Made by a program: the position numbers and the translations under genes. A stretch of 23,891 nt of DNA, from positions 1 to 23,891 of IMG/VR virus record IMGVR_UViG_3300010885_022070. The stretch is one strand, 5' to 3'. The notes under the pieces are model-generated. The model saw nothing but the letters and a program-made list of their open reading frames with translations. It searched no databases and was not told where the DNA came from. The number at the start of each line of letters is the position of its first letter. Within the stretch, counting starts at the first letter, position 1. This DNA is from a virus. Below, piece by piece: positions 3,102-16,568 of the stretch.

Positions 3102-4933
3102 GCAATCGCATCGAACTGTCAGCGGCCCTCAACGTGCAAGCGGCCGACGAGGCCGCTGTGCCGACGTTTGAGTTGGTGGCCTACACCGGGGCGAGCATCC
3201 GCCAAGGGTGGTCGCGAAACCCGCTGGTGGTGGATCTCGCACACATGGACGCTTCGCGTCCGATCCCGATTCTGTACGCCCACGGCAAGGAAATGCCTCT
3301 CCTCGACTCGGTGATCGGCAAGAGCCTGGAAGCCACCAACGACGGCAACCAGCTCATGCTTCGCGGTGAACTGATCCGCGGGACGCCAGCGGCCGACAAG
3401 CTCATCGCTTTGGCGAAGGCCGGGGTGCCGCTGCAAGCGAGCATCGGTGCCGACGTTGGCTCAATCGAAAACATTGCCGCGGGAGCGAGCGTGACCGTCA
3501 ACGGTCGCGAGTTCCCCGGCCCCATCAGCGTTGCTCGTGGAGCGGTTCTCCGCGAGACGAGTGTGGTCCTGTTCGGTGCGGACGCATCAACGTCCGCGGC
3601 TATCGCCGCCGAGGCGAATGAGGTTTCCAACATGAGCGAGCAGCTCAACGAGAAGCCCGTCGAGGCCGCCGTGCCAACGACGGAAGCCACGGCGATTGTC
3701 GCCGCGGACCAGAAGGTGATTGCCGGCAACGACGGTGCCAACACCATCGACGCCGAGGCCGTCGCCAACATCGTGCTGGAACGGCTCCGTGCCGACCGGC
3801 TCGCCGAGGTTCGTGCCGAGCGGCCCAGGGCTCCGGCTGCCCACGTCGTGGACGCTTCGGCGGCTCACGACCCGCGGGTGATCGAAGCGGCTCTCTGCCT
3901 CAACGGCGGACTCGGCAACGTCGAGAAGGCCTTCGACCAGAAGACCCTCGAGGCGGCTGACCGTCGGCGTGGCAGCACGTCGCTGCAGGAAGTGCTCGTC
4001 GAGGCCGCCCGTGCCAACGGGTATCACGGCCCCGCTCGCATCTCGGCCGGCAACGTGCGGGAGGTGCTCGCGAGTGGTTTCGCGACGCACAGCATCAGCA
4101 ACGTGCTCGCCGCGACCTACGGCAAGTTTCTTCTCCAGGGCTACACCGCTGTCGAAGCGGCGTGGGACCAGATCGCGTCGATCCGCAGCGTCAGTGACTA
4201 CAAGACGGTCACCGGCGTGCGGCTCAACGGCGGTTTCGATTTCGAGGACGTTGGACCTTCCGGCGAACTGAAGTCGGCCGACGCTTCGGACGAGACGCGG
4301 ACGATCCGGGCCAAGCTGACCGGCCGTATGTCGTCCATCACGATGGTTGACATCGTGAACGACGACCTGGGTGCTCTCACCCAGGTTCCGGCCCGTCTGG
4401 GCCGCGGTGCCGCGGTGAAGCTCAACAAGGATTTCTGGACGGAGTACGAGCTGAACAACAGCACGTTCTACCGGAAGGAAACCGCGGCTGCCGGCAACGC
4501 CCTCCAGCTCTCCGCTCTGCGGACGGCGGTGGCGTCCTACCGGAAGTTGACCGATCCGGACGGCAACCCGCTGGGAATCACGCCGCAGATCCTGCTCGTC
4601 CCGCCGGAGCTGGAGATGACGGCCGAGGAGCTGATGGGCTCGTCGGTGCTCATCACCGGAGAGAACGTGACTCGCGGAAACGTGAACGTGTTCGCCGGCC
4701 GGTTCCGTGTCGTGTCCAGTGCGTACCTCACCAGCGGTACGACCTGGTGGCTGATGGCGAACCCGGCCGAACTGCCGGCGATGGAAGTCGCATTCCTCAA
4801 CGGCCAGCGGCTGCCGACGGTGCAGCAGGCCGAGGCGGACTTCAACATGCTCGGCATCCAGGTTCGCGGCCACTTCAGCTACGGCGTTGCCAAGGCTGAG
4901 GCCCGCGGTGCCTACCGGATGGCGACTGCCTGA
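3098..4933 (+). CDS. Fused prohead protease and major capsid protein (Mu gpT-like)
   Basis: 611 residues from ATG 3098, overlapping the portal stop by 4 bp. Residues about 20-175 look like a prohead serine protease: conserved His in ILYAHG (H62), Ser in PLQASIGA (S115), and RETSVVLFGAD (E153 a possible third residue). A hydrophilic, Ala/Glu-rich linker (about 179-270) could serve as scaffold. Residues about 280-611 match major capsid proteins of the Mu gpT-like group: GITPQILLVPPELEMTAEEL, the beta-rich middle, and the C-terminal GIQVRGHFSYGVAKAEARGAYR. In most phages these are two genes; here there is no stop between them. An in-frame ATG at 3632 (M179), with a weak TGAGG 8 nt before it, could yield a separate 433-residue scaffold-capsid form. 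Confidence 0.88.
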   Translation: MSNRIELSAALNVQAADEAAVPTFELVAYTGASIRQGWSRNPLVVDLAHMDASRPIPILYAHGKEMPLLDSVIGKSLEATNDGNQLMLRGELIRGTPAADKLIALAKAGVPLQASIGADVGSIENIAAGASVTVNGREFPGPISVARGAVLRETSVVLFGADASTSAAIAAEANEVSNMSEQLNEKPVEAAVPTTEATAIVAADQKVIAGNDGANTIDAEAVANIVLERLRADRLAEVRAERPRAPAAHVVDASAAHDPRVIEAALCLNGGLGNVEKAFDQKTLEAADRRRGSTSLQEVLVEAARANGYHGPARISAGNVREVLASGFATHSISNVLAATYGKFLLQGYTAVEAAWDQIASIRSVSDYKTVTGVRLNGGFDFEDVGPSGELKSADASDETRTIRAKLTGRMSSITMVDIVNDDLGALTQVPARLGRGAAVKLNKDFWTEYELNNSTFYRKETAAAGNALQLSALRTAVASYRKLTDPDGNPLGITPQILLVPPELEMTAEELMGSSVLITGENVTRGNVNVFAGRFRVVSSAYLTSGTTWWLMANPAELPAMEVAFLNGQRLPTVQQAEADFNMLGIQVRGHFSYGVAKAEARGAYRMATA

Positions 4934-5420: not shown

Positions 5421-7448
5421 ATGCAGGACATGATCGCCATTGGCGAGGCGTGGTTTCGATCGCAGCGGCGTGAGCACTTGGCGACTGAGGTTTCGTATCA
5501 GCCGACCATCGGCACCACGCGAACAGTGCGGGCGACTGCCGTCGTTGGGCGATGGGAGTCCATAGATGCCGCCGGCCAAATGCTTCGGACGGAGACGCAA
5601 GACTTTTTCGTTGACACGACGGACCTTGCCCAAGACCCGAAGAAGGGCGACCGGATCGTTGCCGGCGGCTTCACTTACGAGGTGATGGTCCCGCCGGGGG
5701 CCGAGCACCACTGGCGGTGGTCGGACCGCAATAAGACGCTGAGACGGATTCACACGATGGTGACCGATGGCCCAGCCAACCGCACTCCGGCCGTCCCAGG
5801 CCCGCCGACCGCCGTTGTCGGCGTGAATGACTTGCCCGTGACTTGGACGGCCCCTGTAGTGACCGGCGAGTACGCCGTGACTTCCTACAAGGTCTACGCC
5901 GGCGACGTACTGCAGGAAACCGTGACGGCCCCATCGACGACGAGCGTTGGGACGTGGCCTGGTGGAACGGTGATCCGGGTGTCGGCAGTGAATGCGATCG
6001 GCGAGGGGGAAAAAAGTTCGCCAGTCTACCTGCCTTTGTTTCCGCTGTTCGTCTTTACTGGCGAAAGCAACAGCGGTGGCCTGGGGCTCAACAGCCAGGC
6101 TTCTGCGGAAGAGCTGGCCCCGCGTTCGCAGCTTCAGATACTGAACAACTCGTCGCTCGTTTTTGAAGCATTGGACATCGGAACAAACAACCTGTTAGGT
6201 CATGGTGGACTTGAAAGTTACTTCACAACTTGTCACGGAATAGAGTTGCAACTTGCCAATCAGGTTGTCGCCGGCCGCTGGCCGAAAAGCACAGCGTATC
6301 TCGTAAAAACCGGCCAAGGCGGATACAAGATTTCAACATGGCTGAATAACACTCAGACCTTCGCGGCTACGTTTTCTCAACGAGTCGCAACGGCCATGCA
6401 ACTGCTTGAGGATAATGGCATCGCGTATCGGCCCGTCGTGTTCATGTCGATCGGCATCAACGATGCTTTCGACAACACAGACCCCGCGACGTTCAAGAGC
6501 AACGTCAAGGAAGTGCATGGGAACATCCGGTCGGTGCTCGGGAGCAACACGCTGATCGTGATGACGCTGTTTGAGAGTCCCATTGCGTCATATCAAGAGA
6601 ACGACGAAATAAACGACGTGATTCGGCAAATCGCATCCGAAGATAGTAACGTCCTTGCAATCAGTACGGCGGGGTTTCAAGCGGACGGCGGATCGCACTG
6701 GTCATACGCCGGGCTCAAGTCAGTTGCCGATGCTTTCCGGACGGCTGTGTTTAGCAACGCTGCGGATTTTTCGATTCAAGATCAGGTGGTTCGCGTGCCG
6801 CCTAAAAGCCAACTCGCCGCATGGTATGACGCCGCTGATCGCGGGGCGTTTTTCATTGATTCCGGAAAGGTGTCGAGCTGGTACGACAAAAGCGGCAACT
6901 CAAGGACGGCCACGCAAAGCACGCCAGGAAACCGTCCATCTCTGGCCGGCACGCTGAATGGAAGGTCAACCGTAGCGTTTTCTGCGGCCTCAACAAACTT
7001 CCTGAACATGACGTACAGCGGCTGGAGTCAAAACCCGCTAACGATTTATGTGCTCTATAAGGCCACTAAAACGTCATCTGGGCTGCACACGTCCCTACTC
7101 AGCGGAGGGTCGAACGCCATCTACGTTGGCCGCGAAGGCAGTGCGGACGCTGTGTTAAAGGCTGGATCGGGGACGCACGCAACGGCTGCGGGCGACTCTG
7201 GCTGGCGGCTTCTTCGGTACTCGCAGAGCGGATCGACGTGGAACCTGTCATCGAACGCAAACACAGCGTCGGGGACGAACGGGCCGACATACGCCTCAAC
7301 CAGCGCGTTTCAGATTGGATCTTACGCCTCGCTTTCATCGTTCTGCCTGGACGGCGAAATGGCTGAGATGCTGATCTACAACACAGTAACCGATGCCGCC
7401 ACCGACCAGCGAGTCAGGAGATACATTCAGCAGAAGTGGGGAGTGTAA
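5421..7448 (+). CDS. Neck (head-tail joining) protein fused to FN3, SGNH esterase and lectin-like domains
   Basis: 675 residues in one uninterrupted frame. Residues 1-112 look like an FII-type head-tail joining protein: ATEVSYQPTIG, DFFVDTTDLAQDPKKGDRI, YEVMVPPGAEHHWRWSD, ending LRRIHT as such proteins do. About 126-203 is a fibronectin-III-like domain (PGPPTAVVG, TSYKVYAG, VSAVNAIGEGEKSSP). About 208-445 fits an SGNH or sialate-O-acetylesterase-like hydrolase: GESNSGG (nucleophile S216), TGQGGYKISTW (298-307), GIND (345-348), and DGGSH (D422, H426; spacing DxxxH rather than the usual DxxH). About 463-675 resembles a concanavalin-like sugar-binding domain (LAAWYDAAD, SSWYDKSGN, FSAAS.NFLNM, MAEMLIYN). 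GC falls visibly after about nt 6000, so the esterase and lectin parts look grafted onto a resident neck gene. Inferred: a neck-anchored appendage that binds and deacetylates surface glycans. Confidence 0.75.
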   Translation: MQDMIAIGEAWFRSQRREHLATEVSYQPTIGTTRTVRATAVVGRWESIDAAGQMLRTETQDFFVDTTDLAQDPKKGDRIVAGGFTYEVMVPPGAEHHWRWSDRNKTLRRIHTMVTDGPANRTPAVPGPPTAVVGVNDLPVTWTAPVVTGEYAVTSYKVYAGDVLQETVTAPSTTSVGTWPGGTVIRVSAVNAIGEGEKSSPVYLPLFPLFVFTGESNSGGLGLNSQASAEELAPRSQLQILNNSSLVFEALDIGTNNLLGHGGLESYFTTCHGIELQLANQVVAGRWPKSTAYLVKTGQGGYKISTWLNNTQTFAATFSQRVATAMQLLEDNGIAYRPVVFMSIGINDAFDNTDPATFKSNVKEVHGNIRSVLGSNTLIVMTLFESPIASYQENDEINDVIRQIASEDSNVLAISTAGFQADGGSHWSYAGLKSVADAFRTAVFSNAADFSIQDQVVRVPPKSQLAAWYDAADRGAFFIDSGKVSSWYDKSGNSRTATQSTPGNRPSLAGTLNGRSTVAFSAASTNFLNMTYSGWSQNPLTIYVLYKATKTSSGLHTSLLSGGSNAIYVGREGSADAVLKAGSGTHATAAGDSGWRLLRYSQSGSTWNLSSNANTASGTNGPTYASTSAFQIGSYASLSSFCLDGEMAEMLIYNTVTDAATDQRVRRYIQQKWGV

Positions 7449-8437: not shown

Positions 8438-8754
8438 TGACACTCGCTGAACTGACGCTTCCGGCGACACGCGACAACTGCAAAGACATCGCCCTAGTCT
8501 ACCACTACGATGTTGCCGTCGCACTGTACCAAGTGCAAGTCGAACACGGCGACCCGCGCCACGTTCCTATTGGTCGGGAACTGACGGATGGCCGCTGGAT
8601 GATGCTGGGCGAGGTGCTGTCTGAAGTCGGGCCGGGCGGTCTGCTCTTTGGTGCGTTCCGGCACATCACGCCCGAGATGATGGCGAAGGTGGAAGTCATC
8701 CCGCTGGCTGATGCTACTTCCCTCCTGCCAGAGTGCCCTAGCCCTGTGGGCTAG
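8437..8754 (+). CDS. Small conserved-looking protein of unknown function
   Basis: 105 residues, start overlapping the previous stop by 1 bp (TAATG) and stop overlapping the next GTG (TAGTGA), so it is firmly embedded in the operon. The sequence (VYHYDVAVALYQVQVEHGDPRH, LTDGRWMMLGEVLSEVGPGGLLFGAF) is compact alpha/beta with no signal peptide, membrane helix or catalytic motif I recognise. I do not know the family. Its place after a fibre-like gene would fit a fibre assembly helper, but nothing in the sequence proves this. Confidence 0.6.
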   Translation: MTLAELTLPATRDNCKDIALVYHYDVAVALYQVQVEHGDPRHVPIGRELTDGRWMMLGEVLSEVGPGGLLFGAFRHITPEMMAKVEVIPLADATSLLPECPSPVG

Positions 8755-9890
8755 TGAACTTCCGCCGCGTGAAATCCGGGGTTTACGCCGACGCCAATCC
8801 CGCTAGGCTAACCGGTGAACAGGTGAACACCGGCATGATCGAACACCTACACAGACTCGCGGCCCACGCCTACTACGTCGGCGAGCACGACGCTGGCCGC
8901 CGGGCGTGCGAACGGCTCATGCGTCTCCCTCTCTCCGCGGAGAAAGAGGAGAAGGTGCGGTCCAACCGCACTTGGTACACGCGGACGCTGACCGATCAGG
9001 GCGTCGCCGCGGAGTTCACGAAGATCGACGTGCCGCCGGCCCGCGTCGGATGGTCGCTGTTCAACCCGTCGGTCGTGAGCCACCGCGACCGGTTGCTGGT
9101 CAACGTGCGATCAAGCAACTATTCGATCGACGAAAACGGTCGCTACGTCATTCCGGCAGAGGACCGGGAAGCGATCCGGACATACAACTGTCTCGTCGAA
9201 GACGGGCACGCACGATATTGGGCCGCCGACTACGAAGCCACCGGATTCTCGGTGACGGGGCTCGAGGACGTGCGGCTCAACTCCGTAGGCGGCGAACTGA
9301 TCGCGTCGGCCACGATCCGCAACTGGGCGGGCCGCGATGGGACTTGCCGTATCGGCGTCGGAATCTTGGATAGATTCGACCGAATCCGCGATCTTCGCTG
9401 CCACGACACCGTCAGCGGCCGGCATGAGAAGAACTGGATGCCGATCACCGGCCGGCGGGAGTGGCTGTATTCATGCAGCCACGAAGGCAGGACGTGCCTC
9501 GTCCGCGAAGACGGCAACGATTGGACGGTGACGGCACACGCCGAGGCTCCGCTGGTGGCCCGCGGGTTCCGGGGCGGCTCGCAGCTCGTCGAGCACCCAT
9601 GGGCTCCTGGTCTGTGGTGGGCGATCGTCCACGAGGTGGCCGTCTCCGGTGGCCGTCGGGTCTATGAGCACCGATTTGTGATGTTCGACGAGGGTGCTGA
9701 TTGGCGGATCACGCGGGTATCCCCGCCCTTCGCGTTCCGCGAAACCCGCACTATTGAGTTCGCCGCCGGGCTCGCGGTCAGCGACCAGAACACCCTCGTG
9801 GCATCGTTCGGCGTGCGGGACGCCGAGGCGTGGCTGGCCTACGTTCCGATCGCCGACGTACTCAACATCATGGTGGACGCATGGGAGTGA
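8754..9890 (+). CDS. Beta-propeller glycosidase/phosphorylase-like protein (GH130-like)
   Basis: 378 residues from GTG 8754, translationally coupled to the preceding stop; no separate ribosome site is visible. Residues about 25-80 form a helical, TPR-like segment (LHRLAAHAYYVGEHDAGRRACERL). The rest resembles the five-bladed propeller of GH130 and related GH43/GH32-like enzymes: NPSVV (104-108), GLEDVRL (169-175; the Asp of 'EDxR' is catalytic in GH130), EKNWMPI (225-231), RGGSQLVE (273-280), IVHE (291-294), YEHRF (304-308), IEFAAGL (334-340). GH130 enzymes act on mannosides, but related propeller proteins linked to TPR-glycosyltransferases may have other roles, so the substrate is open. It heads a three-gene cassette with a methyltransferase and a GT2 enzyme. 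Confidence 0.65.
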   Translation: MNFRRVKSGVYADANPARLTGEQVNTGMIEHLHRLAAHAYYVGEHDAGRRACERLMRLPLSAEKEEKVRSNRTWYTRTLTDQGVAAEFTKIDVPPARVGWSLFNPSVVSHRDRLLVNVRSSNYSIDENGRYVIPAEDREAIRTYNCLVEDGHARYWAADYEATGFSVTGLEDVRLNSVGGELIASATIRNWAGRDGTCRIGVGILDRFDRIRDLRCHDTVSGRHEKNWMPITGRREWLYSCSHEGRTCLVREDGNDWTVTAHAEAPLVARGFRGGSQLVEHPWAPGLWWAIVHEVAVSGGRRVYEHRFVMFDEGADWRITRVSPPFAFRETRTIEFAAGLAVSDQNTLVASFGVRDAEAWLAYVPIADVLNIMVDAWE

Positions 9891-10441
9891 CCGCATCGGC
9901 GGCATGGACCGAATCAGTCCGCAAGCTGCTGGAAAGCAACTGGCGTGAAGATGATTGGTTCGGTTGCGACAGCAGGGTGATTTTCCATTACGCAATGAAG
10001 GGTGAGATTTTTCGCCGCTACAAGCCGGCCAGCGTGATCGAGATCGGCACCCGCTGCGGCTACTCGCTGCTGACATTTGAGGCCGCGGCCCCCGGTGCCC
10101 ACTATCTCTGCATCGACGGGGCGATGGACGCCGACTCCTACGACTGCCTCGCCCACTGGCGGCGGCTGGTCGAGAAGCACCAGATCGACGCCGACCTGGT
10201 CGTGGTCGACTCCCACGCAATCAAGAGTCTGCCGCCGGCAGACTTCGCCCACATCGACGGCGACCACTCCTACGCCGGGGCTCTCGCCGACCTCCGGCTG
10301 GTGGCCGGAAGCCGGGTGATCTTGGCCGACGACTGCGACAACCGGGAGGTCCGGTCGGCGGTGGAGACGTTCGCCAAAGAGCAAGCCCGGACGGTTGAGT
10401 ATTTCGATGACGGGCTGCGGCAGGGGGCGGTGCTCACATGA
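9881..10441 (+). CDS. Class I SAM-dependent methyltransferase-like protein
   Basis: 186 residues from ATG 9881, overlapping the previous gene by 10 bp; an upstream ATG at 9830 is less likely because it lies deeper inside that gene. The Rossmann-type SAM fold is indicated by VIEIGTRCGYS (52-62, motif I), LCIDGAMD (77-84, the acidic end of strand 2), FAHIDGDHSYAGALADLRL (122-140) and VILADDCDN (146-154). The HIDGDHSY pattern is typical of the Methyltransf_24 group often found beside glycosyltransferases. Together with neighbours it probably methylates a sugar or a glycosylated protein, but the acceptor is not deducible. The ATGA overlap at its end couples it to the next gene. Confidence 0.75.
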   Translation: MGVTASAAWTESVRKLLESNWREDDWFGCDSRVIFHYAMKGEIFRRYKPASVIEIGTRCGYSLLTFEAAAPGAHYLCIDGAMDADSYDCLAHWRRLVEKHQIDADLVVVDSHAIKSLPPADFAHIDGDHSYAGALADLRLVAGSRVILADDCDNREVRSAVETFAKEQARTVEYFDDGLRQGAVLT

Positions 10442-11493
10442 AAGTCGCCATTTACGCCCTCGCCCGCAACGAAGCCGCCAACGTTGAGCGGTGGGAGTCG
10501 TCGTGCCGAGAGGCCGACGTGCGGGTGGTCACCGACACCGGCTCCACCGACAACACGGTGGAGCTGCTCGAGGCCGCGGGCGTGACGGTGGCCCGCGGCT
10601 GCCCGATCCCGTGGCGGTGGGACGACGCCCACAACCTATCCCTCATGCACGCCCCGGCCGACGCCGATGTGGTGATCCGGCTGGACCTCGACGAAGCCCT
10701 CGACCCCGGCTGGCGGGAAGCCCTAGAGCGTGATTGGAAGCCGGAGACCACCAAACTCCGCTACTGGTACTGGTGGTCAGACGTGGTCCGCTTCCGCTGC
10801 GACCGCATTCACACCAGAAACGGCTACCGGTGGACCGGGGCGACGCACGAGGGGCTCGTGCGGTGGGACGGCGACGAAGTGCAGACGCAATCGGACGGCG
10901 TCGTGATCCGCCACCATCGGCAACCAGGCAAAACCCACTCAACCGACCTCACGCTCCTCCGGCAAGCCGTCCGTGAGAATCCGACCGACGCCCGGATGCA
11001 GTGGTATTTCGCTCGCGAGCTGGATTACGCCAACGATGCGGCGTGCGTGGAAGAGTTTGCGAAATACCTTGCCATGCCGGGTGGGGCTCCGAACGAGCGT
11101 GCGTATGCCCGCCGGGTCATGGGAAGGCGGGACGAGCATGGGCGTGCCCGCCACATGCTCGGGTCCATGCTAGAGAGCCCGCTGGAGCCGGAGGCATACG
11201 TCCACGTCGCCGAGTTGGCGTGGGCGAAGGGCGATCCGGTGGGCACGCTTTACTGGGCACGGCAAGCCCTCAACTGCTCCGACGAAAACCGGTCGCACGC
11301 GAGCGATCAGGCGTGCTACTCATATGCCGTACCTGATTTGGCGTGCTCGGCTGCCATGCAGATGGGTCGCTACGGCGAGGCTTTGCTGCACGCCAAGGAC
11401 GCCCTCTCTAGAAACCCAAATGATGAGAGGCTCAAGAAGAACGTCCGCATACTAGAGACAATGGAATCGGAGGACGGCCCCAAGGCCGAATAA
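10438..11493 (+). CDS. Family 2 glycosyltransferase with C-terminal TPR repeats
   Basis: 351 residues, start overlapping the methyltransferase stop by 4 bp. The GT-A fold is shown by IYALARNEA (5-13), DTGSTDNT (33-40, nucleotide binding), WDDAHNLSL (61-69), IRLDLDEAL (80-88, containing the metal-binding DxD) and THEGLV (136-141). From about residue 170 the chain turns to helical repeats with TPR spacing: WYFARELDYAND..CVEEFAKYL, AYVHVAELAWAKGDPVGTLYWARQAL, RYGEALLHAKDAL. GT2-TPR proteins transfer sugars to proteins or surface glycans, with the TPR part holding the acceptor. In a virion gene block this points to glycosylation of a structural protein or alteration of host surface sugar. Confidence 0.85.
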   Translation: MKVAIYALARNEAANVERWESSCREADVRVVTDTGSTDNTVELLEAAGVTVARGCPIPWRWDDAHNLSLMHAPADADVVIRLDLDEALDPGWREALERDWKPETTKLRYWYWWSDVVRFRCDRIHTRNGYRWTGATHEGLVRWDGDEVQTQSDGVVIRHHRQPGKTHSTDLTLLRQAVRENPTDARMQWYFARELDYANDAACVEEFAKYLAMPGGAPNERAYARRVMGRRDEHGRARHMLGSMLESPLEPEAYVHVAELAWAKGDPVGTLYWARQALNCSDENRSHASDQACYSYAVPDLACSAAMQMGRYGEALLHAKDALSRNPNDERLKKNVRILETMESEDGPKAE

Positions 11494-13558: not shown

Positions 13559-14116
13559 ATGAAGGCATTCACGGACACTGAGGGGCGGATCTGGAGCATC
13601 CGAGGCAGTCTCGGGGCTTTTGAGCGGGCCAAGACGCTGACCGGCGTCGATATGCTCGACCTTCCAACTACGCAGAACTGCCTCAAAGAAATCAACAACG
13701 TCTTCACGCTCGGCCGCGTTCTCTATGCGATGTGCCAAGACCAGGTTGAGTCTCGCGGTTTGACGCCAGAGCAGTTTGCCGACGGGTTCAACGCCGACAC
13801 GTTGCACGATGCCAGCAACGCCCTTTTGGATGAGGTGGTTTTTTTTTGCCGGAAGGATCTGAGGCCGGCACTCCAGATGGCTCTCGACAAGGCGAGGCAG
13901 GCCGACGCAATGGTGGTGGAGACGATGCAGTCGAGGGTGCATCACATGGAGAAGGAGATGGACCTCGTGATCGAGAACCTCCTGACCTCTACCAGCTCTG
14001 CTACGAGCTTGCCGGCGTCATCGGAGTCCACCCCGGAGAGTGGACGCTCCGCGGCCTCGTCTGGGCGGCCACAGCCAAGCAAAAAGAAGCGTGGGGCCAC
14101 ACCTCAACCGTCGTAG
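13559..14116 (+). CDS. Tail assembly chaperone, frame-0 product (gpG-like)
   Basis: 185 residues from ATG 13559. The N-terminal half has the look of siphovirus tail chaperones: AFTDTEGRIWSIRGSLGAFERAK, VFTLGRVLYAMCQDQVESRGLTPEQFADGF, ALLDEVVFFCRKDLR. A charged helix follows (LDKARQADAMVVETMQ, HHMEKEMDLVIENLL), then a Ser/Pro/Lys-rich tail without structure. It lies between tail tube and tape measure, and its last 270 bp overlap a second frame with its own coding signal, the classic G/GT arrangement. Third-position GC stays high in this frame until about 13985 and falls after it, suggesting the final 40 residues are weakly constrained. Confidence 0.75.
   Translation: MKAFTDTEGRIWSIRGSLGAFERAKTLTGVDMLDLPTTQNCLKEINNVFTLGRVLYAMCQDQVESRGLTPEQFADGFNADTLHDASNALLDEVVFFCRKDLRPALQMALDKARQADAMVVETMQSRVHHMEKEMDLVIENLLTSTSSATSLPASSESTPESGRSAASSGRPQPSKKKRGATPQPS
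13839..13847 (+). promoter_or_regulatory. Candidate -1 slippery site (T9)
   Basis: Nine consecutive Ts are read as G GTT TTT TTT TGC in frame 0. The heptamer T TTT TTT allows both Phe tRNAs to re-pair after a -1 slip, after which translation continues as TTG CCG GAA. Whether this is the site used is uncertain, because frame-0 codon bias persists about 140 nt beyond it. Confidence 0.5.
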
Positions 14117-14253
14117 CCCAGCACTATTCAATCCACCGCGATCCAAAGAAGAGGCGTGAGCCCTACAAGCCGCACGAGTTCAATCCGTTCTGCGAGAAGT
14201 CAAAGCCAAAGATGCTCGACGAGAAATCATTCGCTGAAATGTTTGGGGACTAA
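13846..14253 (+). CDS. -1 frame extension of the tail chaperone (GT-like)
   Basis: This frame has no ATG or GTG; its only possible start is a TTG at 13846 inside a run of nine Ts, so expression by -1 slippage from the preceding gene is more likely. Slippage there would give a 231-residue fusion. The convincing part begins near 13984: LYQLCYELAGVIGVHPGEWTLRGLVWAATAKQKEAWGHTS, then IHRDPKKRREPYKPHEFNPF, matching the second half of such chaperones in related phages as I know them. The stretch from 13846 to 13980 reads as Gly/Arg/Asp-rich filler. The fused form is expected to bind the tape measure, whose gene starts 2 bp after this stop. Confidence 0.68.
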   Translation: MPEGSEAGTPDGSRQGEAGRRNGGGDDAVEGASHGEGDGPRDREPPDLYQLCYELAGVIGVHPGEWTLRGLVWAATAKQKEAWGHTSTVVAQHYSIHRDPKKRREPYKPHEFNPFCEKSKPKMLDEKSFAEMFGD

Positions 14254-14255
14254 GA

Positions 14256-16568
14256 ATGGCTGGCGCCGGTGGAGTTCGTGCCGGTGGTGCCTTCGTAGAA
14301 ATCTACGCTAAGGACACACGATTCCAGCAAGCCATGGCTCGCGTCCAGGGCCGGCTCAAGGCTATCGGCTCGACGATGCAGGCTCTTGGCACGTCGATGT
14401 CTCTCGTCGGGACGGCCCTCGGGCTCCCGATGGTGCTCGCGGCAAAGACGGCCGCCAAGTTTGAGGATGCCATGCTCGGCATGAAGGCCGCGGCTGGCCT
14501 GACTGACGGCGAGCTGAAGGCGGTCGAGCAGGCCGCACTCAACTTATCGAAGACGATGAACGTCGCGCCGTCCGGCATCGCGGAGGCTTTCCTTGAACTG
14601 CTGAAGGCCGGAATGTCGCTCGAGCAAGTGCTGGGTGGTGCCGGCAAGGCCGCGGTAGAGTTTGCAAGGGTGTCGGGCGTCGAGATGGCAGACGCTGCCG
14701 TATTTATGAAGGTTTCGATGAACACGTTCGGCGTATCGGCTACGCAAGCAGTCGATACGCTTTCCGCTGCCGCGGATGCCAGCGAAACTTCAATCGCGTC
14801 CATGGTCGAGTCGTTCGGCTTGGTCGGATCTGCCGGTGCTCTGTTCAATCAGTCTCTTTTTGATATTTCGCAAGGTCTGGCGGTGTTGGCAAGGTTCGGC
14901 ATCAAAGGAGAAGAAGCCGGCACGGGTATCAAAACGGCCCTAATGCGTCTCACGTCTCCGGCCAAGGAATCTGAGGATGCACTGGCCCAAATCGGACTCA
15001 CCTTGGAGAGTTTTCGGAATGCCGACGGAGAACTGCTTCCGCTCGTCCAGATTGTTGGCGTCCTCCAGGATGCGTTAGTCGGCGTCGATCAAGTGATGCG
15101 AGACCGGATCCTCGGCCAAGTGTTCGGCGACCGCGGTATCCGAGTGGTCGGTGCATTCCTCAACGTCGGCGTTGCTGGATTTGAAGACATCGCCGACGCG
15201 ATGGAGGCAAACCTTCCGGTGGCGCTCAAGTTCCAGATCCTTATGAGCGGAATCACTGGGGCGATGCAAACGATGTATGCGGCCGTCGAGCGGCTGACAA
15301 TCGCGTTTGCGAAGGCTCTCGGGCCAAATATTGCCTACGCAGCGGCAGCGGCCGCAAAGTTCATCGACATTGCGGCGGCCCTCATTTCAGCCTTCCCAGG
15401 CGTGACAACGGCAGTGGTCGGGGCCACGGTTGCACTCGTCGGGATGGGCGTCGTGCTCATAGCCACCGGGCTCGCATTCAAGGCGCTCGCCGCTGGGGTG
15501 GCGGTGCTGTCGGCAGCCTTGGCATTGCTCACGTCGCCGATTGGTCTGGCAGCGGCCGCCCTAACGGCCGGCGTGGCGATCATGCTGGTGAACATGTACA
15601 AGCTGTCACCAGCATTTGCCGAGGAAATGGACGCGATCATGGCGGCGGCGATGGCGCTTGATTTTGGAACCGCGTGGCAGCTCATGAACATCAACCTCGC
15701 CATCGCGTTGGTTGAGATGCAGCAGCGTTTCCATGACACGTTCTCCGCGGTGAAGAACACGGTCATGGGAGTTAGTGATTGGATTGGCGACAAGCTGATT
15801 GAGGGGCTGGACCGTTTTCTAGGTCTTTTCGGTAGCGACATTCTTTGGTTGCAGGGGAACCTTGAGAAGCTCGGGAAGTATTTCAAGGCGGCGTTTGATT
15901 GGGACTTCGCCTTGAACGGATTGACCGACGCCCTCGCGGCCGTCGACGCCCGCATTGAGAAGGAGAGGGCGAAGGCCCCGAATGCCGATGCTCGGGCTCA
16001 GGAAAGGGACGCGGAGATGGATCGCAGGGCGAAGGCACGCCAAGCGGCCGACGACGAGGCCCAGAAGAATCGCCCCGGCACGATCGACGAGCTGAAGGCA
16101 GAGCGGGAAAGGATCAAGAAGAAGGGCGAGGAGAATCGCAAGAAGGTGGAAGAGGTTCGCCAGAACGAAGCGAAGCGCGGCGATCTTGAAATGCCCATGA
16201 TGGACGCCGCGGCTGGTGGCGTCACCGCCAAATCGGTCGGCACCTTCTCCGCAGCACTTGCCGGCAGGATCGGAGTCGGGCCGGAAATCCAAGTAATGAA
16301 CGCCATTGCGGACAACACCGGCAGAGCTGCCGACGCGCTTGAAGGGATGCTGCAGGGCAACTTCAAGAACGCCAACCCTCTTGGCGACATCAACGCCGTA
16401 AATGGTGCGATCGCGGCCGCGGCCCGCGTGCAAAACGCCCCGGTTGCCGGCGGTGACGAAGCACTCGTGACCCCTATGGAGCAGACGGCGGCATCGGTGG
16501 CCGAATCTACGCGGCACCTAAGAGAGCTTGTTGGCCTGGCCCGTTCGGGCGGGCTCGCGTTTGCATAA
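14256..16568 (+). CDS. Tail tape measure protein (TP901 type)
   Basis: 770 residues; ATG 14256, 2 bp after the chaperone frame's stop. The N-terminal third has the TP901 tape-measure core: TAAKFEDAMLGMKAAAG, LNLSKTMNVAPSGIAEAFLELLKAGM, VFMKVSMNTFGVSATQAVDTL, FGIKGEEAGTGIKTALMRL. A hydrophobic stretch at about residues 383-450 (VVGATVALVGMGVVLIATGL and following) could insert into the host membrane during DNA entry. A highly charged helix at about 560-640 (KAERERIKKKGEENRKKVEE) is coiled-coil-like. At the usual 0.15 nm per residue the tail would be of the order of 115 nm (an inference). A tape measure this long is typical of siphoviruses. Confidence 0.9.
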   Translation: MAGAGGVRAGGAFVEIYAKDTRFQQAMARVQGRLKAIGSTMQALGTSMSLVGTALGLPMVLAAKTAAKFEDAMLGMKAAAGLTDGELKAVEQAALNLSKTMNVAPSGIAEAFLELLKAGMSLEQVLGGAGKAAVEFARVSGVEMADAAVFMKVSMNTFGVSATQAVDTLSAAADASETSIASMVESFGLVGSAGALFNQSLFDISQGLAVLARFGIKGEEAGTGIKTALMRLTSPAKESEDALAQIGLTLESFRNADGELLPLVQIVGVLQDALVGVDQVMRDRILGQVFGDRGIRVVGAFLNVGVAGFEDIADAMEANLPVALKFQILMSGITGAMQTMYAAVERLTIAFAKALGPNIAYAAAAAAKFIDIAAALISAFPGVTTAVVGATVALVGMGVVLIATGLAFKALAAGVAVLSAALALLTSPIGLAAAALTAGVAIMLVNMYKLSPAFAEEMDAIMAAAMALDFGTAWQLMNINLAIALVEMQQRFHDTFSAVKNTVMGVSDWIGDKLIEGLDRFLGLFGSDILWLQGNLEKLGKYFKAAFDWDFALNGLTDALAAVDARIEKERAKAPNADARAQERDAEMDRRAKARQAADDEAQKNRPGTIDELKAERERIKKKGEENRKKVEEVRQNEAKRGDLEMPMMDAAAGGVTAKSVGTFSAALAGRIGVGPEIQVMNAIADNTGRAADALEGMLQGNFKNANPLGDINAVNGAIAAAARVQNAPVAGGDEALVTPMEQTAASVAESTRHLRELVGLARSGGLAFA

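Follow-up and report, generated by a model that had tools for sequence, protein, structure and literature searches.

We analyzed a stretch of 23,891 bases (61% GC), which is virus record IMGVR_UViG_3300010885_022070 and is referred to as the window. It carries portal, capsid and tape measure genes. Just 5' of the tape measure gene lie two overlapping open reading frames (ORFs), and the second is in the -1 frame without a start of its own, which is the layout of a phage tail chaperone. The first ORF encodes the G protein, and the second encodes a linker and the T domain, joined to the first part of G in the putative GT product. Within G, a run of nine Ts (T9) is read in frame 0 as GTT TTT TTT TGC, so that a slip heptamer stands in the X_XXY_YYZ phase. 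T9 is the only homopolymer of at least seven identical bases in the whole window. The -1 frame opens five bases before it, and from T9 to the T domain this frame contains no ATG or GTG and one TTG (13846), created by the run itself. These features bear out an earlier reading made from the letters alone (the sequence-only reading), which had placed T9 at the opening of a start-less -1 frame. Its proposal of a G/GT frameshift is supported by the conservation of T_TTT_TTY, the open -1 frame and the tape measure gene on the 3' side.

Table 1. Features of the candidate tail-chaperone locus (positions are those of the window)
Feature	Position	Strand	Remarks
G, frame-0 tail-chaperone ORF	13559..14116	+	185 amino acids (aa); N-terminal domain 1-96, long helix about 102-147, disordered tail (predicted)
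GAGGTG, Shine-Dalgarno (SD)-like	13832..13837	+	2 nucleotides (nt) before the heptamer; unconserved even in close relatives (GAAGTG in L006, L015, L013)
-1 frame ORF	13834..14253	+	opens after TGA 13831-13833, ends at TAA 14251-14253
T9 run, frame-switch site	13839..13847	+	heptamer T_TTT_TTT at 13840-13846
Double-use segment, 46 codons	13846..13983	+	frame 0, G helix; -1 frame, disordered hydrophilic linker LPEG...EPP
T domain, -1 frame (DLYQLCYEL...IHRDPKKRREPYKPHEFNPF...)	13984..14250	+	conserved across 86 distinct loci; residues 51-110 of the -1 product have a predicted local distance difference test score (pLDDT) above 90
Tape measure protein gene, directly 3'	14256..16568	+	PF10145, E 4e-32; PHROG tape-measure families, E down to 4.1e-51

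Relatives of the locus were collected from scans of IMG/VR together with two contigs from metagenome-assembled genomes (MAGs), and 195 of these 196 loci matched the T profile. After removal of near-identical stretches and of loci with under 330 nt upstream, 86 distinct loci were kept. T_TTT_TTY is present in 79 of them, 110–188 nt upstream of the T domain, as an exact T9 in 45 and as TTTTTTC in 34. In the 22 representatives that were laid out, the slip codons are preceded by 91–96 G codons. Two further loci bear another heptamer at the homologous place, A_AAT_TTT in L082 and C_CCT_TTC in L084; since neither is a homopolymer, both fit slippage by the ribosome and not homopolymer slippage. The sequence-only reading had named two contrary outcomes, a run of 8 or 10 Ts and homologues with a separate start for the second frame. 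We sought both among the relatives. All 45 T9 loci have exactly nine Ts, and the second frame shows no conserved start codon.

Between the slip site and the T domain, the -1 frame holds no stop in 1,650 codons (36 representatives under 70% identity). In 1000 synonymous shuffles of the frame-0 protein over the same segment, the -1 frame acquired 39.4 ± 5.2 stops, and at least 25 every time. The +1 frame of this segment contains 88 stops, and the -1 frame upstream of the site contains 70 (3,204 codons). The slip site was picked on condition of an open -1 frame after it; no locus was removed thereby, and the sole 'closed' heptamer (L179) has an open one downstream. We also notice that, in 77 of the 79 loci, one of the first two residues encoded by the -1 frame after the shift is a proline: the first in 34/34 TTTTTTC loci and the second in 43/45 T9 loci. 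The frame-0 residue at this place varies (P, R, Q or H), and its codon always begins with C. Compared with the shuffles (stop-bearing ones kept, with the stops removed), the linker departs modestly in make-up, being more acidic and having fewer hydrophobic residues.

Because stops are missing and the proline is conserved, we consider that the -1 frame is translated from the T-run onward under some amino-acid constraint. The comparison of relatives shows the place of the switch, the use of the -1 frame from there and the boundary between linker and T, and on this ground the frame almost certainly changes at T9. Our findings support the idea that the next 46 residues form a loose disordered linker, read through the segment that encodes the long C-terminal helix of G. 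One of the two options left by the sequence-only reading, slippage at T9 with about 45 largely unconstrained linker residues after it, is thus supported by the avoided stops, the conserved proline and the conserved site.

In a tree of 78 of the 79 slip-site loci, a single branch (support 100/99) separates all 45 T9 loci from the 33 TTTTTTC loci included. In the TTTTTTC clade, GGAGG precedes the heptamer with a spacer of 10 nt in 21 of 34 loci and of 11 nt in one more. Pairing with the anti-SD sequence is better than in synonymous shuffles in this clade by -1.9 kcal/mol (27 representatives), with an uncalibrated p of 2.5e-5 that reaches 1.6e-7 in single 9-nt windows. The control windows also gave small p-values, often towards SD avoidance (+2.75, p 1.9e-7, offset -210, T9 set) and, downstream, towards SD presence (-1.65, p 1.3e-4, offset +60, T9 set). 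Of 21 windows, the one right after the TTTTTTC heptamer has the strongest excess of RNA structure (z -1.36, p 5e-6), a signal which was weak in a first test on the pooled clades and appeared only after the clades were split, the split being made after GGAGG had been seen. Since the SD p-values are uncalibrated and the split was made post hoc, we place weight on the fixed 10-nt spacer and on the contrast between the clades. The two clades offer a natural comparison of how a G:GT ratio can be set, by a heptamer with stimulators or by a bare nine-T run.

In the T9 clade, to which the window belongs, GGAGG occurs in 2 of 45 loci, at 7 nt. The nine Ts are invariant in 24/24 representatives, including the two that lie beyond the heptamer, and the flanking bases vary (A, G or C before; G or C after). 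Among the other nearby codon positions of this clade, only 6/47 columns at first positions and 9/47 at second positions are invariant. The two Ts outside the heptamer may be fixed for the sake of the protein, by V/I/L and C/S. Directly after T9 of the window, we tried a GCCGG/CCGGC hairpin as a candidate element. It can form in several relatives and is broken in L006 and L009, and it was rejected, the T9 clade having no excess of structure.

Ribosome slippage and the addition of an extra U by RNA polymerase on T9 would yield an identical GT protein. We rank the ribosome first and the polymerase second, because the heptamers that relatives use for the homologous shift are shorter or are not homopolymers; the sister clade also carries both of the usual ribosomal stimulators, which are counted on the same side. 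Taken as a whole, the reading of the locus as a lambda-type G/GT tail chaperone with a mid-gene -1 shift at T9, made by ribosome slippage, has in our estimate a probability of about 0.6.

Several observations speak against this reading. Five of the 86 loci are without a perfect site at the homologous place. Two of them have imperfect sites (GAT TTT ACC in L102, GAT TTT TGC in L187); in L085 and L086, AAAAAAC and GGGAAAC stand near the end of an apparently different G; and in L103, the sequence upstream of the T domain is unrelated. In the T9 clade (24 representatives), no SD-like stimulator was found beyond synonymous shuffles over the upstream stretch (p 0.62), and downstream RNA structure showed no excess over shuffles (z -0.03, p 0.9), although windows containing T9 look unstructured partly because the shuffling changes TTT to TTC. 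Neither the SD-like element about 10 nt upstream nor the stable downstream structure of a dnaX-type cassette was therefore seen in this clade. Meanwhile, the run is always exactly nine Ts, though the heptamer needs seven. The missing stimulators and the constant nine Ts fit slippage of RNA polymerase as well as, or better than, slippage of the ribosome. Finally, G has no Pfam or PHROG family and no fold in PDB.

Apart from this weighing, we note two details of the exceptional loci. In L102 (about 3275-3390) and L187 (about 2490-2632), the -1 frame is still open and FYP or FLP follows, and these may be either one-tRNA slips or lost sites. In L103 (2820-3000), a Planctomycetota MAG contig, an intact T domain follows unrelated sequence that replaces the N-terminal part of G, which may reflect a decayed prophage or an assembly chimera.

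Slippage of RNA polymerase on T9 would produce a share of messages carrying ten (or 9+1+3n) Us, from which standard translation would give the same GT. We regard this as possible, at a probability clearly below that of the ribosome. Such slippage would call for a maintained A or T run of at least nine bases; all 45 loci of the clade have exactly nine Ts, invariant between variable flanks, and stimulators are absent here and present in the sister clade. Runs of at least nine As or Ts are otherwise almost absent, with one other besides T9 in 429,654 bases of the 86 distinct loci. The available text of PMC5009743 describes high-efficiency slippage in vivo on nine As or Ts, and that of PMC1088944 gives nine nt as the length where selection against A/T runs shows in many bacteria. 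However, simple homopolymer slippage would need longer or more uniform sequences than those used by the sister clade and L082/L084, so that the homologous event elsewhere appears to be ribosomal. The Ts that flank the heptamer may be fixed by their amino acids, T_TTT_TTT may be slippery enough unaided, and the clades differ by one branch, which makes the contrast one event and not a repeated correlation. In the literature searched (including the available text of PMC5009743, PMC3711429 and PMC10885494, with most subscription papers outside it), we found no report of transcriptional slippage for a tail chaperone. If the T9 clade does rely on polymerase slippage, transcription would already settle the tail assembly ratios.

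We speculate, tentatively, that the sister clades make the same G/GT pair by different machines, a stimulated ribosomal -1 shift at T_TTT_TTC and polymerase slippage on nine Ts without stimulators, with both shifts at the domain edge and GT exchanging the G helix for linker and T. This would be a phage counterpart of the dnaX split between E. coli and Thermus. The available text of PMC5009743 and PMC1088944 describes ribosomal frameshifting for dnaX in E. coli and productive transcriptional slippage in T. thermophilus. There, as here, homologous genes give the same products, one lineage relying on a stimulated ribosomal shift and the other on a nine-base homopolymer. In contrast to dnaX, the present case concerns two sister clades within phage tail-chaperone genes, with a polymerase slip that is so far only presumed.

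A separate start for the second frame is very unlikely on sequence grounds. Such a start would make the T part an independent protein from TTG 13846, with GAGGTG, 8 nt before it in the window, as ribosome-binding site; the TTG is forced by T9 followed by G, and a GTG stands directly before the T domain in 15/79 loci. Since neither the TTG nor GAGGTG, which is lost in the nearest relatives, is conserved, we reject this explanation. No such start gives access to the segment in the TTTTTTC loci; even so, its -1 frame is kept open in both clades and begins with a conserved proline. The TTG of the T9 loci is a by-product of the run. As a separate observation, the GTG just before the T domain in L042, L043, L044 and further loci of the T9 clade might let that subclade make T as a protein of its own, though not the window.

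In order to follow the coding signature, we compared 12 equally long relatives pairwise and averaged their differences at codon positions 1/2/3 of frame 0; G aligns without gaps over 185 codons with its closest loci, and position 2 of frame 0 is the third position of the -1 frame. The values are 0.23/0.17/0.48 upstream of T9, 0.25/0.19/0.44 over 13850-13915, 0.36/0.30/0.40 over 13916-13981, 0.16/0.24/0.14 over 13982-14014 and 0.15/0.37/0.19 over 14015-14113. The most variable position is thus the frame-0 third up to about 13980 and the -1-frame third from about 13982. In 13982-14014, all three positions vary little, which would make this stretch a possible element, though the -1 protein is also most conserved there. 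The late switch of bias near 13985 noted in the sequence-only reading is real (it falls near 13982). The 'continuing frame-0 bias' before it is partly weak, as 13916-13981 is relaxed in both frames.

The sequence-only reading had left open that an unusual site near 13976-13985 is used. The substitution pattern does change frame at 13975-13987 (GAACCTCCTGACC), and, as that reading had noted, no standard slippery heptamer of the form X_XXY_YYZ lies there. A switch at this place would leave the upstream -1 frame free to gather the stops that the shuffles predict and the relatives lack, and the stretch itself varies among relatives (e.g. AGCCTCTTGACC, CGGTACCTGACC). We therefore discard this site as highly improbable. 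By the alignments, GAACCTCCTGACC and the late change of bias mark the start of the T domain at 13984, not the frame switch, and for annotation a change of coding bias should accordingly be taken as the start of the T domain and not as the place of the frame change. Homopolymer runs are prone to sequencing error, but an error in the run or a decayed gene is refuted in practice by the identical nine Ts in 45 distinct loci and by selection on both frames.

The end of frame 0 falls 127-139 nt into the T domain in 38/45 T9 loci (130 or 139 nt after its start in 34/45), and 13-73 nt into it in the TTTTTTC clade. We notice that the frame-0 stop of the window (14114-14116) falls in a GTA valine codon of the -1 frame, and GTA is rare for valine in these genes (15/293). 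The stop position and the rare GTA hint at selection on where G ends.

An AlphaFold2 model of G from 22 sequences has a mean pLDDT of 81.6. It shows a compact N-terminal part, whose last helix (79-96) ends at FF, followed by one long helix (102-147), and residues 147-181 are mostly under pLDDT 50. In the model of the -1 product, residues 1-40 are nearly all under pLDDT 50, with the linker at a pLDDT of about 40, and the confident T domain begins from about residue 48. In these models, the frame switch sits at a domain edge, where G carries the long helix and GT the loose linker with T.

We suggest that most readings of the gene would give G (185 aa), in which a globular domain precedes the long C-terminal helix and the tail is disordered. 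A presumed minority would leave frame 0 for the -1 frame at T9 (V-F-F, codons 94-96), and the most likely cause is that the ribosome slips on T_TTT_TTT with both tRNA-Phe in tandem. From TTG 13846 onward, the -1 ORF would then be read, so that Leu-Pro, about 44 more disordered linker residues and the T domain would follow, giving a GT of about 231 aa without the G helix. The predicted tryptic junction peptide of GT ends ...VVFFLPEGSEAGTPDGSR. If lambda is a guide, both products would bind the tape measure protein through their shared G part, the tail tube protein would be the partner of the T part, and the G:GT ratio set at the T-run would matter for tail assembly. Since the shift is mid-gene, the long helix is present in G and absent from GT, which may bear on how the tape measure protein is shared.

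The nearest known layout is that of SPP1 gp17.5/gp17.5*. According to the available text of PMC6316719, a putative -1 shift occurs at UUUUUUC midway through the first gene, the frameshift product shares residues 1-112 of the 173 and lacks the remaining frame-0 part, and the tape measure gene comes next. The window is alike in its mid-gene -1 shift, in the frame-0 remainder dropped from the long product and in the tape measure gene on the 3' side; it differs in having T9 in place of UUUUUUC, and the likeness is drawn from layout, not from protein similarity. Given this precedent, a long overlap with a mid-gene shift is not new. Lambda gpG/gpGT (available text of PMC5009743; J02459) likewise has two overlapping frames in a -1 relation before the tape measure gene, and a long product made of G and T parts. 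Unlike in the window, the lambda shift takes place on GGGAAAG 5 codons before the G stop, and GT keeps nearly all of G. P2 gpE/E+E' (AF063097) shares a -1 shift at a T-rich heptamer, TTTTTTG, but shifts 6 codons before the stop and has a contractile tail (sheath and tube genes are in the record). The shift in the window thus lies well before the 3' end of G, with 89 frame-0 codons still to come; the corresponding counts are 5 in lambda, 6 in P2 and 61 in SPP1 (from the lengths published in the available text of PMC6316719). We consider a shift at the 3' end typical of lambda and P2 and not defining, as SPP1 departs from it too. Mycobacteriophage D29 gp24/gp25 (AF022214) is similar in its -1 relation and long overlap (223 nt), and an NRDPKK...P.DF stretch in its T part resembles HRDPKK...P.EF by eye only; in contrast to the window, scanning of its overlap found no X_XXY_YYZ heptamer.

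At the level of families, the window's own G and T proteins have no match in Pfam or PHROGs, and a PDB fold search with the G model returned 44 matches, the best at E 2.0, with no usable fold. The sole meaningful family match is to PF06223 (Phage_tail_T), in 3 distant relatives at E 0.00019, 0.0058 and 0.019, all below the curated cut-off. Among named phages, tblastn with the window or L076 protein found no relative of the T part. A first scan of genome contigs found none, and a wider alignment yielded the two cellular contigs, both Planctomycetota MAGs; one is Phycisphaera, with a TTTTTTC site. Judged by these contigs, the host of the window phage is probably a planctomycete.

Two further regions of the window are unusual. 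The ORF at 5421-7448 (675 aa) combines a head-tail joining protein (PF25138, E 1e-21) with an SGNH/sialate-esterase-like domain (PF03629, E 2.8e-10) and has more sequence C-terminal of the latter, an unusual fusion of connector protein and carbohydrate esterase. Between the head and tail modules (8754-11493), one gene encodes a protein of 378 aa that matches no Pfam family; the others encode a methyltransferase-like protein (PF13578, E 3.6e-9) and one with TPR-like repeats that resembles glycosyltransferase-2 (E 0.00026, below the cut-off). From these matches, the region is a possible sugar-modification cassette.
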